This document shows positions 5,635 to 37,441 of a stretch of DNA of 64,000 bases, piece by piece. Position 1 is the first letter of the stretch, and each line of letters opens with the position of its first letter. The position numbers were made by a program, and so were the translations under genes. The notes under the pieces were generated by a model. That model saw only the letters and a list, made by a program, of their open reading frames with translations, did not search any database and had not been told where the DNA came from. Origin of the DNA: Parolsenella catena (GTDB taxonomy: Bacteria > Actinomycetota > Coriobacteriia > Coriobacteriales > Atopobiaceae); assembly GCF_003966955.1 (NCBI RefSeq), contig NZ_AP019367.1, positions 124,001 to 188,000 on the forward strand. The letters run 5' to 3'.

Positions 5635-6291
5635 ATGGCGGATGGCAAGATTCCCGAGGAGTTCGAGGTGGGCACGCCCGTGCTCGTGTGCCGCTGGCGC
5701 CTGCAGGACGGCGCGCTGCCGATCGAGAACCGGCACCTGCGCGCGCTGGGGCGCCGTCACGTGCTGGGCAAGAAGCTCTCCAGGCAGCTGCTTGCCTGGG
5801 CCAAGCAGCACATAGAGTGGACGCTCGCGGACGGCACGGCCGAGCACCCGGACGGCGTGCTCATGCTCCTCGTTGACGCCGAGGGCCGCGCCGCCATGGC
5901 GTGCGGAGACTACGAGCCCCTGCCGGACACGACGCTGGCCGGCCTTCTCGCGCGCGCCGCGTCTGGCAGCGACGAGGCGTCCGAGACTGACATCGCCCCC
6001 GAGACGATCTGGGTGGGCCGCGGCCGCGGCCTTGCCGTGGGCATGGCGCCCGGCGAGCACCCCTCTGGCGCGGCCTCGCTCGTCGAGGACCTCGCCAAGA
6101 CGCTTGGCATGCCCGTCGAGCGCGATCCGCAGCTGCTCGCGCGTCTCGCCGACGCTGCCGAGAAGCCCGCCGAGGCGTTCCTCGTCTCGGACGAGCACGG
6201 CATCATCCCCGCGTCTGACGCGTCCGGCGCGCTGGCGAGGAAGTTCGCCGATGGCTGGGACCGCCTGCTCGAGCGCTCCCGCCGCCGTTAG
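5635..6291 (+). CDS. Conserved-looking protein of unknown function, 218 residues
   Basis: I do not recognise this protein. It is a soluble, acidic, Ala/Glu-rich 218-residue polypeptide with no signal peptide or membrane segment. The N-terminal 70 residues contain basic helices (RHLRALGRRHVLGKKLSRQL). A middle part resembles an alpha/beta fold (DGVLMLLVDAEGRAAMACG), and the C-terminus repeats that pattern (EAFLVSDEHGIIPASDASG). The start is ATG 5635 with AGAAAGGCGG upstream; the longer open frame reaching 5524 lacks a ribosome-binding site. It is divergent from the BceAB operon and alone in its transcription unit. Codon use matches the neighbours, so it is very likely a real gene. Confidence 0.7.
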   Translation: MADGKIPEEFEVGTPVLVCRWRLQDGALPIENRHLRALGRRHVLGKKLSRQLLAWAKQHIEWTLADGTAEHPDGVLMLLVDAEGRAAMACGDYEPLPDTTLAGLLARAASGSDEASETDIAPETIWVGRGRGLAVGMAPGEHPSGAASLVEDLAKTLGMPVERDPQLLARLADAAEKPAEAFLVSDEHGIIPASDASGALARKFADGWDRLLERSRRR

Positions 6292-6369
6292 GACCAAAAG
6301 GGACGGGTTACTTTGGTCCCGTCCTGTCCGATGCCGCCGGGACCAGATGAACCCGTCCCCTTTGGCGCC
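6291..6369. repeat. Two facing copies of a GGACCAAA...TTTGGTCC repeat
   Basis: Copy 1 (6291-6319) begins GGACCAAA, ends TTTGGTCC and carries GGGACGGGTT in the middle. Copy 2 (about 6340-6365) is a degenerate copy in the opposite orientation, with GAACCCGTCCCC in the middle. The same element recurs at 14260-14288. The palindromic ends and intergenic location mark a REP-like family. It starts one base inside the end of the upstream gene. Confidence 0.7.
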
Positions 6370-6401
6370 GCCGTTTGGACGTATATCCGAACGGCGGCGC
6401 C
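6364..6401. terminator. Strong 12-bp hairpin after the 5635-6291 gene
   Basis: GGCGCCGCCGTT (6364-6375) pairs perfectly with 6390-6401 around a 14-base loop; it is followed by ACTTTCTC. It probably ends the upstream transcript, but it lacks a uniform T tract and directly abuts the repeat pair, so it may instead be part of that element. Confidence 0.5.
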
Positions 6402-6412
6402 ACTTTCTCAAA

Positions 6413-6504
6413 TTGACGATTAATCAGTGCTCATTTGCGGGATAATCAAACCGCTATGAAGAGATATCACCCTCTGGCGATCGGGGAATTCGCCACGGGG
6501 TGAT
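6413..6504 (+). promoter_or_regulatory. Putative nifJ promoter and leader hairpin
   Basis: A GATAAT -10 candidate (6441-6446) lies upstream of a 15-bp imperfect inverted repeat (6466-6480 with 6490-6504, two internal mismatches, 9-base loop). TTGACG at 6413 is 22 bases from the -10, too far for a standard promoter, so the -35 is uncertain. A 15-codon frame (ATG 6456 to TGA 6503) runs through the hairpin and would start almost at the predicted transcript 5' end. This could be a leader controlling nifJ or an operator. Confidence 0.4.
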
Positions 6505-6587
6505 TTCGCGTGCTCGGGCATCCGCCAAGGTGGCGGAGGCGGCTCTTCTCGTCAAGCCCGCGCGTGACCTCGACAGAAGGAGAGGAT

Positions 6588-32536: not shown

Positions 32537-33703
32537 ATGCAAGAGCTCAGCCAGCGCACGTCGCAGTTCACGGACTCCGTGATCCGCCGCATGACGCGCG
32601 TGTCCATGAAGTATGACGCCATCAACCTGTCCCAGGGCTTCCCGGACTTCGACCCGCCCGCAGAGATCACCGACCGCCTCGCCGAGGTGGCCCACACCGG
32701 CCCGCATCAGTACGCCATCACCTGGGGTGCCCCCAACTTCCGCGCCGCGCTTGCCGCCAAGCAGGGCCCGCGCATGGGTCTCGACATTGACCCGGAGACC
32801 CAGATCGTGGTCACGTGTGGCTCCACCGAGGCCATGATGTGCTCGGTCATGACCGTCACGAACCCGGGCGACCGCATCGTCATCTTCAGCCCGTTCTACG
32901 AGAACTACGGGGCCGACACGATCCTGTGCGGCGCCGAGCCCACCTACGTGGAGCTCCACGCCCCCACGTTCACCTTTGACGAGGCCGAGCTCGAGGCTGC
33001 GTGCGCCATCCCTGGCACCAAGGCGCTCATCCTGTGCAACCCGTCCAACCCCTGCGGCCACGTCTTCAGCCGCGCCGAGCTCGAGACGATCGCCAAGATG
33101 GCCGAGAAGTACGACCTGTGGGCCATCACGGACGAGGTCTACGAGCACATCGTCTACGCGCCCCACGAGCACGTCTACTTCGCGAGCCTGCCCGGCATGG
33201 AGCAGCGCACGCTGTCCTGCAGCTCCCTGTCCAAGACCTACTCCATGACCGGCTGGCGCCTGGGCTACGTCATTGCGCCGGCAGACGTCATCGACCGTGC
33301 GCGAAAGGTTCACGACTTCCTCACCGTGGGTGCCGCCGCGCCGCTCATGGAGGCTGCCGTGGCCGGCCTCACGCTGCCGCAGTCCTACTACGACGAGCTC
33401 ACGGCGCTCTACACCCACAAGCGGGACCTCTTCTGCAACGGCCTGCGCGACCTGGGCTTTGACTTCATCGAGCCGCAGGGAGCCTACTACGTCATGGCCG
33501 ACGTCTCTGGCCTGGGCTATGAGGACGACTACGACTGCGCCGTCGACCTGTGCCGAAAGGTGGGCGTGGGCACGGTGCCCGGCAGCTGCTTCTTCAACGC
33601 GCCCGAGAACCGCTTCGTGCGTTTCCACTTCGCCAAGTCCGACGAGGTGCTCAAGGCGGCCCTCGACCGTCTCGACGGCTGGCGCGAGAAGATGGCGCGA
33701 TAG
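32537..33703 (+). CDS. Class I/II PLP-dependent aminotransferase
   Basis: A 388-residue fold-type I aminotransferase. The internal aldimine lysine is Lys233 in SLSKTYSMTGWRLGY. Other landmarks are INLSQGFPDFDPP, YAITWGAPNFRAA, CNPSNPCGHVFS, WAITDEVYEHIVY and the carboxylate-binding FVRFHFA. SQGFPDF and the kynurenine/methionine-aminotransferase-like pattern suggest aromatic amino acids or methionine as substrates, which would suit its position before a tryptophan transporter. This is inference only. Start ATG 32537 has GGGGAGGA upstream; the frame to 32504 lacks a signal. It is probably monocistronic, since a separate promoter precedes the next unit. Confidence 0.92.
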   Translation: MQELSQRTSQFTDSVIRRMTRVSMKYDAINLSQGFPDFDPPAEITDRLAEVAHTGPHQYAITWGAPNFRAALAAKQGPRMGLDIDPETQIVVTCGSTEAMMCSVMTVTNPGDRIVIFSPFYENYGADTILCGAEPTYVELHAPTFTFDEAELEAACAIPGTKALILCNPSNPCGHVFSRAELETIAKMAEKYDLWAITDEVYEHIVYAPHEHVYFASLPGMEQRTLSCSSLSKTYSMTGWRLGYVIAPADVIDRARKVHDFLTVGAAAPLMEAAVAGLTLPQSYYDELTALYTHKRDLFCNGLRDLGFDFIEPQGAYYVMADVSGLGYEDDYDCAVDLCRKVGVGTVPGSCFFNAPENRFVRFHFAKSDEVLKAALDRLDGWREKMAR

Positions 33704-33739: not shown

Positions 33740-33769
33740 TTGCGCGCGGCCGCATCGGGCGCGTATAGT
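33740..33769 (+). promoter_or_regulatory. Promoter of the tryptophan-attenuated ECF operon
   Basis: TTGCGC (33740-33745) and TATAGT (33764-33769) are separated by 18 bases, about 50 bases before the leader peptide start. Confidence 0.6.
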
Positions 33770-33820
33770 CGCACCCAACAAGCGCACGAGGCGCTTATCG
33801 ACCCAAGAGAGGAGTGCACC

Positions 33821-33883
33821 ATGTTCCAGTCCATGAACAACAACTGGTGGTGGCGCAACTCGAACTCTCTCGGTCGATGGTGA
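33821..33883 (+). CDS. Tryptophan-rich leader peptide of a transcription attenuator
   Basis: A 20-codon frame with a good ribosome-binding site (GGAG six bases before ATG 33821) encodes a peptide with three consecutive Trp codons (33845-33853) and a fourth Trp as the last codon (33878-33880), then TGA. Four Trp in 20 residues is far above expectation. A transcription terminator follows at 33913-33946, and the next gene is a tryptophan-transporter-type S component. The peptide thus acts as a sensor of charged tRNA-Trp: a stall at the Trp triplet leaves 33867-33877 free to pair with 33927-33937 inside the terminator. Confidence 0.88.
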   Translation: MFQSMNNNWWWRNSNSLGRW

Positions 33884-33912
33884 GTCTTGTCGCGCCTTAT
33901 ATCTCGCGAATG

Positions 33913-33946
33913 AAAGGGCTCCCGGTTCGACCGGGGGCCCTTTTTT
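33913..33946 (+). terminator. Attenuator terminator ahead of trpP
   Basis: AAAGGGC-T-CCCGGT pairs with ACCGGG-G-GCCCTTT around TCG (13 pairs plus one wobble position) and runs into six T. It lies 30 bases after the leader stop and 87 bases before the S-component start. The segment 33867-33877 of the leader can pair with 33927-33937 (11 pairs including three G-U), which would break this hairpin. Confidence 0.88.
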
Positions 33947-34032
33947 CGTATCGCGGCAACGTTCGCGAAGCCCCAATCCACATTGCCAGCAGCCCCGACG
34001 ACCAACTGGGAACAACAGAAAGGTTCACCGCC

Positions 34033-34596
34033 ATGTCCGAGAACACCCAGCAGGCCCGCACCGTCACCACCAACAACCGCGGCAAGCTCGACCTCCAGGC
34101 GCTCGTGCTGCTCGCCATCCTGCTCGCGGCCGGCTTCATTCTCAACTTTACCGTGGGCAAGGCCATCTCATCCATCTCCGGCGGCATGATCAGTCCGGAG
34201 TTCATCATCTCGGCCTTCTGCCTCACGATCCTCGTCGTGCGTCCCAACATCGGCCAGGCCCTCGTCATCGGCCTCATCTCCGCGGCCGTCATCCAGCTCA
34301 CGACCACCTCGCCCTTCATTGACTTCGCGGCCGAGGGCGTCGCCGCCATGCTCATGGCCGGCATCGTGGGCGTGGCCTCCAAGAAGGGTTCCGTGAGCGT
34401 TCCCGTCACCGCCGTGGCCACCTTCGTCACCACCGCAGTCTCCGGCCTCATCTTCATGGTCATCAAGATCGCGATGGTTGGCGCCGCCGAGCAGCTCGCC
34501 GCCGCCATGACGCCGGTCGTGCTCCTCACGGCCGTGTTCAACGCCATTCTCGTCGCCGCGCTCTATGTCCCCATCAAGAAGGCCCTCGGCAACTAA
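34033..34596 (+). CDS. trpP: ECF transporter S component, tryptophan-specific (TrpP-like)
   Basis: A 187-residue membrane protein with five to six helices: LDLQALVLLAILLAAGFILNF, FIISAFCLTILVV, ALVIGLISAAVIQLT, VAAMLMAGIVGVASKK, VAVATFVTTAVSGLIFMVI-type segments and a last helix VVLLTAVFNAILVAALYV. Size and topology fit a substrate-capture protein of an energy-coupling-factor transporter. Specificity for tryptophan is inferred from the Trp attenuator directly upstream and from similarity of the N-terminal pattern to TrpP. The dedicated ATPase and EcfT genes follow. Start ATG 34033 has AGAAAGG nine bases upstream; the longer frame would read through the attenuator. Confidence 0.82.
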   Translation: MSENTQQARTVTTNNRGKLDLQALVLLAILLAAGFILNFTVGKAISSISGGMISPEFIISAFCLTILVVRPNIGQALVIGLISAAVIQLTTTSPFIDFAAEGVAAMLMAGIVGVASKKGSVSVPVTAVATFVTTAVSGLIFMVIKIAMVGAAEQLAAAMTPVVLLTAVFNAILVAALYVPIKKALGN

Positions 34597-34610
34597 CTTG
34601 GATACCATGG

Positions 34611-34642
34611 GACGCGCCGGCTACGAGAAGGGTCGGCGCGTC
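34611..34642 (+). terminator. Hairpin between trpP and the ECF ATPase
   Basis: GACGCGCCG (34611-34619) pairs perfectly with 34634-34642 around 14 bases and is followed by TTGCGT. The short T run suggests partial termination, which would make more S component than ATPase. Confidence 0.45.
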
Positions 34643-34707
34643 TTGCGTGCGCGGCGGGCCTGGCGCCTTCGCCTCGCATGCAGCAACCAACAGCAAGAAA
34701 GGCTCTC

Positions 34708-36474
34708 ATGAGCACATCCAACCCAATCATCGAGCTTAGGGACGTCTCGTTCTCCTATGACGAGGGGAGCGAGAAGGCCCTCGACGCCGTCTCGCTCTCC
34801 GTGCGCGAGGGAGACTTCGTGGGCGTCATCGGCCCGTCGGGCGCCGGCAAGTCGACGCTCGCCGCCATGATGAGCGGTGCCATCCCGCACCACTATGCGG
34901 GTAAGCTCTACGGCGCCACGCTCGTTGATGGCCACGACACCTGCGACGTCACGCTCACGGACATCTCGCGCATCGTCGGTAGCGTGCTGCAGGACATCGA
35001 CACCCAGATGGTCGCCTCCGTCGTCGAGGACGAGATGCTCTTTGGCCTCGAGAACTTCGGCGTGCCGCGTGACAAGATCGAGGAGCGCCTCGCTGGTGCG
35101 CTTGACGCCGTGGGAATCGCGGGCCTGCGCAACCGCGAAATCGCCACGCTCTCCGGCGGCCAGAAGCAGAAGGTCGCCATCGCCGCAATCCTGGCGCTCG
35201 AGCCGCGCGTCCTCGTGCTTGACGAGCCCACGGCGGCCCTCGACCCCGCGAGCTCGCGCCACGTGTTCGACACCCTGCACGAGGTCAACGAGCGCATGGG
35301 CATCACCGTCGTGGTCATCGAGCAGAAGGTGGCGCTGCTGTCAGAGTACTGCGGCCGCATCGTGGTCCTCGACCATGGCCGTGTGGCGTTCGAAGGCACG
35401 CCGCACGAGGTCTTCTCGCACGGCGAGGAACTGCGCGAGATGGGCGTCGACAGCCCCCGCGTGGCGCGCGTCTCCAACAGCCTCGCCCGCCACGGCGTCA
35501 TTGAGCGGGGGCTTCCGTGCCTGAACGTTCCCGAAGCCACGGCCCTCATCGCCGGCCTCGTGGGCACGGGCCATGCGGCCGAGGGTGAGGCTCGCGTTCC
35601 GGCGGCCTCGCCCCACGCGCCCACCCCGCGCCCGCATGCTGAGGGAGCCGAGCCCGTCGTCGAGCTGTCTGGCGTCAACTTCTCCTATCCCGGCGGTGGC
35701 GCCTCCGTGCACAACCTCGAGATGCGCGTCTACCCCGGTGAGCTCGTGGGCGTCGTGGGTCAGAACGGAGCCGGCAAGACCACGCTCACCAAGCTGCTGA
35801 ACGGCCTGCTCAAGCCGGCCTCAGGCGAGGTGCGCATCGCCGGCCTCAGCACGTCAGAGGTTCCCACGAGCGCCATCGCCGCCCACTGCGCCACGCTGTT
35901 CCAGAACCCGGACCACCAGATCTGCAAGGACACGGTCCTCGAGGAGGTCGCGTTCGGTCTCGAGCTTCAGGGCGTGGAGCCCGGCCGGGCCCGCGAGCGT
36001 GCCGAGGGGGTCGCCAAGCGCTTTGGCCTGCCGCTCGACGAGGCGCCGTTCTCGCTCTCGCGCGGCCAGCGCCAGATGGTGGCGCTGGCGAGCGTCGTCG
36101 TGTGCGAGCCCGAGGTCGTGCTGCTCGACGAGCCCACGAGCGGCCTGGACTACCGCGAGTGCATGACGGTCATGGAGACGGTGCGCGAGATGGCCGAACA
36201 CGGCTGCGCAGTCATCATGGTCTGCCATGACATGGAGGTCGTGAGCGACTTCGCCGAGCGCCTTGTGGTCATGGCGAACGGCGAGATACTCGCGCGCGGC
36301 GTCGCGGCAGAGATCTTCTCGGACGCCGACCTCATGGAGCGCGCCTACGTGGCGCCACCCCAGATGGTGCAGCTTGCCTCCGAGCTCGCCCGCGAGGTCT
36401 CCCCGGCATTTGCCGGCATGAGCGAGGTCTCTGACATCGTCGACACCGCCGAGGGGATGATCGTCCGTGGTTAA
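34708..36474 (+). CDS. ecfA: ECF transporter ATPase, fused tandem EcfA-EcfA'
   Basis: A 588-residue protein with two ABC ATPase domains in one chain, powering the ECF transporter. Domain 1 (about 8-245) has GPSGAGKST, the Q loop VLQDIDTQM, LSGGQKQKV and LVLDEPTAALD. Domain 2 (about 320-560) has GQNGAGKTT, LFQNPDHQI, LSRGQRQM (signature Gly-Gly replaced by Arg-Gly) and VLLDEPTSGLD. A Pro/Ala/His-rich linker (about 290-315) joins them. Fused ATPase pairs are common in actinobacterial ECF systems. Start ATG 34708 has AAGAAAGG upstream. The gene overlaps ecfT by 8 bases. As both trpP and ecfT are linked, this is a dedicated rather than shared module. Confidence 0.93.
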   Translation: MSTSNPIIELRDVSFSYDEGSEKALDAVSLSVREGDFVGVIGPSGAGKSTLAAMMSGAIPHHYAGKLYGATLVDGHDTCDVTLTDISRIVGSVLQDIDTQMVASVVEDEMLFGLENFGVPRDKIEERLAGALDAVGIAGLRNREIATLSGGQKQKVAIAAILALEPRVLVLDEPTAALDPASSRHVFDTLHEVNERMGITVVVIEQKVALLSEYCGRIVVLDHGRVAFEGTPHEVFSHGEELREMGVDSPRVARVSNSLARHGVIERGLPCLNVPEATALIAGLVGTGHAAEGEARVPAASPHAPTPRPHAEGAEPVVELSGVNFSYPGGGASVHNLEMRVYPGELVGVVGQNGAGKTTLTKLLNGLLKPASGEVRIAGLSTSEVPTSAIAAHCATLFQNPDHQICKDTVLEEVAFGLELQGVEPGRARERAEGVAKRFGLPLDEAPFSLSRGQRQMVALASVVVCEPEVVLLDEPTSGLDYRECMTVMETVREMAEHGCAVIMVCHDMEVVSDFAERLVVMANGEILARGVAAEIFSDADLMERAYVAPPQMVQLASELAREVSPAFAGMSEVSDIVDTAEGMIVRG

Positions 36475-37213
36475 CGTCATCGACTACGTGCCGGGCAACA
36501 CGGTACTGCACCGGCTGAACCCGGTTGCCAAGCTCGCCCTTGCCGCCGGCATCATCGTGGCGACCTTCCTGGCCGACACGTTTCCCATGCTCGTGGGCCT
36601 TCTCGCGCTCACGCTTGCGCTGGGCGCCTACGCCGGCGTGCTGAGGAACCTGCTGTCGCTGCTCAAGCTGCTCGTGCCGCTTGCGGTGGTCATGCTCGTG
36701 CTGCAGACGGTGTTCATGCGTGGGGGAGACGTGCTCCTCGCCTGGGTCACCACCGAGGGCCTCGTCACGGGCGGCAAGGCGTGCCTGCGCCTGCTCGGCG
36801 TGGCGCTGCCGCTCATCCTCATGCTCACCGTGACGAAGCTCAACGATCTCTCGAACGCCTGCGTCGAGGTACTTCACGTGCCGTACCGCTATGCGTTCAC
36901 GTTTACGACGGCGCTGCGCTTCGTGCCCGTGTTCAGTCAGGAGATGAACGCGATCATGGAGGCGCAGACGGCCCGCGGCGTGGAGTATGACACGAGAAAC
37001 CCCCTCAAGAAGATTCGCCTCATGCTGCCGCTGTGCGTGCCCCTGCTCGTGAGCTCGGTGGGCAAGACCGACGCCACGGCGCTTGCCGCCGAGCAGCGCG
37101 GCTTCTACCTGCGCACGAGACAGAGCAGCTACAAGCGCTACCCGATCGTGGGCCTCGACGTGGCCGCGCTCGTCGTGGCCGTGGTGCTCATCGTCGCCGG
37201 CGCGCTGCTGTAG
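36467..37213 (+). CDS. ecfT: ECF transporter transmembrane component EcfT
   Basis: A 248-residue membrane protein coupling the ATPases to the S component. It has about five to six helices and the conserved cytoplasmic coupling motif: in ARG context, EAQTARGVEYDTRNPLKK (about 164-181), and a second AAEQRGFYLRTR (about 206-217) with the characteristic Ala-Arg/Gln-Arg-Gly pattern. The N-terminal LHRLNPVAKLALA is the usual EcfT start. The start codon is GTG 36467, overlapping the ATPase stop codon region by 8 bases, so translation is coupled. Confidence 0.93.
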   Translation: MVNVIDYVPGNTVLHRLNPVAKLALAAGIIVATFLADTFPMLVGLLALTLALGAYAGVLRNLLSLLKLLVPLAVVMLVLQTVFMRGGDVLLAWVTTEGLVTGGKACLRLLGVALPLILMLTVTKLNDLSNACVEVLHVPYRYAFTFTTALRFVPVFSQEMNAIMEAQTARGVEYDTRNPLKKIRLMLPLCVPLLVSSVGKTDATALAAEQRGFYLRTRQSSYKRYPIVGLDVAALVVAVVLIVAGALL

Positions 37214-37332: not shown

Positions 37333-37441
37333 GAGCGCGTTCGATGGGTTCGGGTGACGCCACACCTCGAACCTGGTCAGGGCCGGGAGGCAGCAGCCAT
37401 AAGGGGCCTCTGGCGGGCACCCGTTCCCATCGAGCGCGCTC
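37333..37441 (+). ncRNA. ffs: Signal recognition particle RNA (small bacterial type)
   Basis: The conserved apical domain is visible: CCTGGTCAGGGCCGGGAGG, then CAGCAGCCATAAGGGGCC, i.e. the symmetric and asymmetric loops that bind Ffh. Long flanking helices close it: GAGCGCGTTCGATGGG at the 5' end pairs with CCCATCGAGCGCGCTC at the 3' end. The length of about 109 nt is that of 4.5S-type RNA. It lies upstream of dedA and about 2.6 kb before dnaX. Confidence 0.93.

Follow-up and report, generated by a model that had tools for sequence, protein, structure and literature searches.

A predicted tryptophan-sensing leader-peptide attenuator upstream of an ECF transporter operon in Parolsenella catena and related Coriobacteriia

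Upstream of an ECF transporter operon in Parolsenella catena lies an element that, judged from its sequence, is very probably a classical ribosome-mediated transcription attenuator, sensing tryptophanyl-tRNA and controlling an ECF tryptophan importer. We analyzed a stretch of 64,000 nt (NZ_AP019367.1, positions 124,001 to 188,000 of the forward strand; here called the window, on which all coordinates below are based). An initial annotation of this DNA had proposed attenuation, and that reading is supported by a conserved run of three Trp codons (WWW), a constant gap of 18 nt to the antiterminator strand, and competing folds of the transcript. The switch is predicted to raise tryptophan uptake when tryptophan runs short.

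Leader peptide and promoter, and their conservation among relatives

The leader region was checked base by base. On the forward strand, the putative promoter consists of TTGCGC (33740 to 33745), an 18-nt spacer, and TATAGT (33764 to 33769), and transcription would start some 45 nt 5′ of the leader ORF. The promoter is sub-consensus with a weak −35 hexamer, and a generic promoter scanner made no call at 33740 to 33769. Relatives bear out the earlier promoter assignment: a TATAGT-like hexamer lies 46 to 87 nt 5′ of the leader ATG in 57 of 83 (58 when one at 23 nt is included), against about 5 in shuffles. The upstream gene, which encodes an aminotransferase and lies on the same strand, ends at 33703. 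Downstream of the promoter, a Shine-Dalgarno sequence (AGAGGAG, 33808 to 33814) precedes a leader ORF of 20 codons (33821 to 33883, MFQSMNNNWWWRNSNSLGRW, with the stop codon TGA at 33881 to 33883), in which the regulatory codons UGG UGG UGG occupy 33845 to 33853.

Using the S component of the operon as a query over 100 related genomes, we found it in 52; a short ORF with WWW (or WW) lay just 5′ of it in 29 of the best 30 loci. A genome scan yielded 80 further loci, some of them in genomes already sampled, from Collinsella, Olsenella, Atopobium, Thermophilibacter, Tractidigestivibacter, Parafannyhessea, Enorma, and uncultured relatives. Altogether we examined 120 homologous loci, from Atopobiaceae and Collinsella-type bacteria, and 117 of them carried the leader; among the three without it, one (L231) sits on a contig that ends too early, and two (L025 and L106) are losses. 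Collapsing the 117 loci left 85 distinct elements in which the Trp codons are followed, after 18 nt, by GGT. GGTC stood 18 nt 3′ of the Trp codons in 84 of the 85, a gap that the collection pattern had imposed and that only one of the 117 loci failed; at L105, WWW is present in a layout that does not fit the 18-nt gap to GGT.

Loss of the Trp codons in related leaders had been named as an observation that would speak against attenuation. We found WWW in 83 of the 85 distinct elements and WW in the other two. The WWW frame is open from a start codon with a Shine-Dalgarno sequence in 83 elements; the corresponding figures for the two remaining frames are 6 and 1. Leaders range from 19 to 34 codons in whole-codon steps, with variable N-terminal residues, and the distance from the W run to the stop codon is 12 codons in 81 of 85. 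Outside WWW and an RNA-constrained G[RQ], the peptide is variable, with a frequent N before and R after WWW. The Trp that ends the leader, to which the initial annotation also drew attention, is real in the window but recurs in only 13 of the 85 distinct leaders; because the last residue among them may be R, S, W, L, Q, P, G, or K, this terminal Trp appears incidental and, on sequence comparison, is no part of the conserved device. Since the leader, its spacing, and its pairing partners are conserved across the sampled relatives, the leader itself is not a chance ORF.

Several loci depart from the common arrangement. At L106, a terminator with a GTTGACC loop (about 2180 to 2210) is kept and the leader peptide is lost; the upstream gene there resembles that of ribosomal protein L27 (judged by eye). 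In genome G008, the S gene lies behind the gene for RNase P RNA and has no Trp leader (L125, 3570 to 3927); trpB2 of the same genome still has a leader (L144). In a record of Slackia isoflavoniconvertens (L209), the S gene (74% identity) and its leader are of the Collinsella type. Slackia is placed in a separate family from the Collinsella-type bacteria, and L209 would reflect either transfer or a misplaced contig. In a phylum-wide pattern scan, the matches outside the order lacked the remaining parts of the motif. Weak matches to the RNA model that read GGGTGGTGGCGCAG were set aside as looking, by eye, like tRNA-Pro genes, and some other weak matches proved to be trpB2 leaders.

Terminator and predicted antiterminator

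Between the leader and the first gene lies an intrinsic terminator on the forward strand, as had been claimed, with a hairpin at 33913 to 33942 and a T tract reaching to 33946 (−26.9 kcal/mol for the terminator alone); a hairpin followed by a T tract occupies this place in all 85 distinct elements. The outer helix of the predicted antiterminator joins 33867 to 33877 (CUCUCGGUCGA), which contains the conserved core GGUCRA at 33872 to 33877, to 33927 to 33937 (UCGACCGGGGG), which comprises the terminator loop and the start of the 3′ arm. The 11 contiguous pairs originally described between these segments stand, but two of them, not three, are G-U. The terminator-loop partner of GGTC reads GACC in 77 elements, GGCC in 6, and GGTC and GATC in 1 each. 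The segment 33867 to 33877 was confirmed but proved incomplete: we add an inner helix, in which GAGUCUU (33882 to 33888, overlapping the stop codon) pairs with AAGGGCUC (33914 to 33921), that is, with the terminator 5′ arm.

The antiterminator would accordingly be one long hairpin from 33867 to 33937, the inner part of which, as we propose it, also engages the terminator 5′ arm. The inner helix matters because the outer helix alone uses terminator segments that are made late; a helix on the terminator loop and 3′ arm would be an unusual order unless the inner helix helps, and by engaging the 5′ arm, GAGUCUU would let the antiterminator begin to form before the 3′ arm of the terminator has been made. 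We base the inner helix on the folding of truncated transcripts and on GAGTC, which is conserved in relatives. When strands were swapped between species, matched strands paired no better (z = 0.3), and the inner helix is for this reason offered as a proposal, not as a result.

Folding was thermodynamic, taking account of neither kinetics nor the ribosome. In the window, the antiterminator up to 33937 came to −33.0 kcal/mol and the full-length terminator fold to −35.9 kcal/mol. In transcripts ending at positions +4 to +6 from the GACC start, with the leader free, the outer helix had a mean probability of 0.87 to 0.90, accompanied by about 5.5 inner pairs between GAGUC with its neighbors and the terminator 5′ arm; in full-length transcripts, the terminator had a probability of 0.91 and the antiterminator outer helix 0.04. 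Pairs between leader and terminator numbered 14.8, compared with 7.7 when leaders were shuffled. RNAalifold independently picked the outer helix GGUC:GACC, and 79% of outer-helix cells were paired, against 17 to 45% in slid controls. Covariation in relatives' leaders had been suggested as a check; it proved scarce in the strict sense, since the pairing core hardly varies, with one compensated pair in the outer helix (U-A in L009) and counts that shuffles equaled.

We found no conserved 1:2 pause or anti-antiterminator hairpin in the relatives. Without translation of the leader, GGTC is paired to sequence 5′ of the Trp codons at a mean probability of 0.29, and in the window AUCGACC of the 5′ untranslated region (33797 to 33803) is able to pair with GGUCGAU of the leader. 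This pairing may favor termination when the leader is not translated. It was rejected as a conserved 5′ anti-antiterminator, YYGACC occurring in only 11 of 83 5′ untranslated regions.

The geometry fits the positions that a translating ribosome would take. The size of the ribosome footprint is general knowledge; in the window, the first base of the stop codon lies 9 nt 3′ of the first base of GGTC, and a ribosome held at WWW ends before GGTC, while one at the stop codon covers it. When charged tRNA-Trp is scarce, the ribosome would stall at UGG UGG UGG (33845 to 33853), with its footprint short of the antiterminator strand at 33867 to 33888. Left free, that strand would fold with the emerging segment 33914 to 33937 into one long hairpin, which would occupy the 5′ arm and loop of the terminator and, in vivo, allow readthrough into the operon of S, A, and T genes. 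When tryptophan is plentiful, the ribosome would reach the stop codon at 33881 to 33883 and cover both antiterminator strands (33872 to 33888), and the terminator at 33913 to 33946 would form.

The ECF operon and its probable substrate

All three genes of the operon lie on the forward strand. The first, at 34033 to 34596 as the initial annotation had it, encodes a TrpP-like ECF S component of 187 amino acids with six helices (Pfam and AlphaFold model). It is followed by a fused EcfA-EcfA′ ATPase of 588 amino acids (34708 to 36474), matched in two halves by TIGR04520 (448.8 bits) and TIGR04521 (414.2 bits), both above cutoff, and by a T component of the CbiQ family (36467 to 37213; PF02361, 96.3 bits, above cutoff). 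Against Pfam TrpP (PF17099), the S component scored 21.8 bits, below the cutoff of 27.2, and TrpP matched 17 of 22 S-component homologues at an E value of ≤0.01 (best, 3.6 × 10−7). Every one of the 10 best PDB matches of its AlphaFold model (pLDDT 76) was an ECF S component or an ECF complex, RibU and ThiT among them, at TM values of about 0.4 to 0.6 and with no E value of <0.001. S components carry an AXXXA motif in helix 1 (PMC11109136), and here A28 and A32 of that motif are invariant; the protein thus combines the six-helix fold, the AXXXA motif, and adjacent A and T genes.

The window carries one S component only. In many relatives (L002 to L005, L009, L010, L013, L015, L020, and others), two tandem S paralogues, about 50% identical, stand behind one attenuator. 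A strong GC-rich hairpin lacking any long run of T separates the S gene from the ATPase gene (34597 to 34660; −31.3 kcal/mol for the region) and might determine how much S component is made relative to the ECF module. A small SRP RNA gene (37341 to 37436, RF00169) is located just 3′ of the operon.

The leader had been taken as direct evidence for the transported substrate, on which it bears only indirectly; comparative sequence evidence makes a much stronger case for tryptophan from the Trp T-boxes and trpB2-trpP operons of orthologues than from the leader alone. In three other families of the order (f2, f6, and f9), orthologues lack the leader and have a T-box instead. The specifier of the T-boxes on trpP orthologues, read from cmscan alignments, is UGG in eight of eight (L089, L090, L091, L093, L094, L096, L098, and L099), at Rfam scores of 60 to 77 bits, below the curated 93. 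Two f6 genomes have an operon whose first gene is trpB2 (TIGR01415), itself preceded by a WWW leader, and whose second is trpP. Many relatives have a sibling Trp leader and terminator before trpB2 (L110, L114, L117, L123, L143 to L146, L149, L151, L152, L155, and L156), for example one reading AWWWTRTDSLPD and then a stop codon, with a core resembling TCCGGA/TCGGAC and not GGTCRA. We found no trpA and no match to trpB or trpB2 in the P. catena genome, which is therefore probably that of a Trp auxotroph, apparently unable to make an amino acid that is a contested nutrient in the gut. The T-boxes, the trpB2-trpP operons, the absence of trpA and trpB, and the sibling leaders of trpB2 point to tryptophan independently of the leader in the window.

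A Trp-rich short ORF 5′ of a Trp-related gene would also be expected of a TnaC-like system, in which, when tryptophan is in excess, the nascent peptide halts the ribosome and the operon is induced. We give this next to no credence: the peptide varies in length (19 to 34 codons) and in sequence outside WWW and G[RQ], and what is conserved is limited to the Trp codons, the spacing, and the RNA strand that pairs; the leader is followed by an intrinsic terminator; and induction by excess tryptophan would hardly be sensible for an importer in a Trp auxotroph. The terminator might instead be a constitutive brake, or the transcript end of the aminotransferase gene that stops at 33703 on the same strand, with the Trp-rich ORF incidental, as L106 and L025, which have no leader, might suggest. 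That is very improbable, given that the leader and its pairing partner are kept in 117 of 120 loci, that a promoter sits between the leader and the upstream gene, and that GACC or GGCC is retained in 83 of 85 terminator loops, a part of the hairpin that is normally under no constraint.

A true attenuator could also serve an importer of another aromatic compound, such as an indole derivative, with tryptophan acting only as the signal. The S component falls under the Pfam TrpP cutoff, and the tandem paralogues of many relatives suggest diverging substrates, but the Trp T-boxes on orthologues, the trpB2-trpP operons, a genome without trpA and trpB, and homologues matching TrpP with E values as good as 3.6 × 10−7 make this alternative unlikely. 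An attenuator that senses tryptophanyl-tRNA and controls a tryptophan importer is thus the reading we prefer.

Tryptophan-sensing RNAs in the order and comparison with known systems

The trp operon region was examined in eight prototrophic relatives; in each it contained a T-box motif, and we saw no Trp leader accompanied by a terminator there. Rfam T-box matches, below the curated score, occurred in all five prototrophs checked (L240, at 6259 to 6516, L241, L242, L245, and L247); the T-box of L240, with a UGG specifier, lies directly before trpE. That genome (G029) carries a T-box on trpE together with attenuators on trpP and trpB2. The window contained no T-box at the Rfam gathering score, and no family of Rfam 15 matched the leader element, the window's only matches being a tRNA and the small SRP RNA. 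We lean toward the view that within one bacterial order two unrelated RNA devices for sensing tRNA-Trp are employed, interchangeably and alongside each other, which would let synthesis and uptake answer different measures of tryptophan starvation. If so, the T-box reads uncharged tRNA and the attenuator reads translation slowed at Trp codons, and the clade is a natural experiment that sets T-box against leader peptide for one job.

The mechanism is known; the attenuator family and its target are apparently undescribed. The initial annotation had called such control of an ECF transporter less familiar, and a literature search, confined to open-access papers, turned up no account of leader-peptide attenuation acting on an ECF transporter or reported from Coriobacteriia. 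The element would add a clade-wide family of trp attenuators in Coriobacteriia of the gut and rumen (Collinsella, Olsenella, Atopobium, and relatives). Several independent lines of evidence also connect tryptophan with an ECF S component whose substrate is uncertain.

In the trp leader of the Escherichia coli type, the position of the ribosome on the Trp codons chooses between antiterminator and terminator. The same logic would apply here, but no conserved 1:2 pause hairpin was found, the target is a transporter, and the antiterminator takes the 5′ arm and loop of the terminator. With the T-boxes on orthologous trpP genes, the element shares its target gene, tRNA-Trp sensing, and control of transcription, whereas a T-box binds uncharged tRNA directly and has no leader peptide. 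In Bacillus subtilis, trpP (yhaG) is under TRAP control (PMC13170310); there too a TrpP importer gene is regulated by tryptophan, but through a tryptophan-binding protein that blocks translation rather than a leader peptide sensed by the ribosome. TrpP of Corynebacterium glutamicum was rejected as a comparator, being a different, SdpI-like protein (PMC11995493). His-leader attenuators have been predicted on amino acid biosynthesis and/or transporter operons (PMC9413887) and so resemble our element as predicted leader-peptide attenuators possibly acting on transporters, although they concern histidine, a different transporter class, and Firmicutes. In the same phylum, the trp operons of Corynebacterium and Streptomyces have attenuators whose leaders contain two or three UGG codons (Seliverstov et al. 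2005, PMC1262725). Like the element described here, these have adjacent UGG codons, a GC-rich terminator with a U tract, and shared complementary segments, but their core is gGCC-rGCy-GGCC instead of GGUCRA with YGACC, and their targets are trp biosynthesis and trpS instead of an ECF S component.
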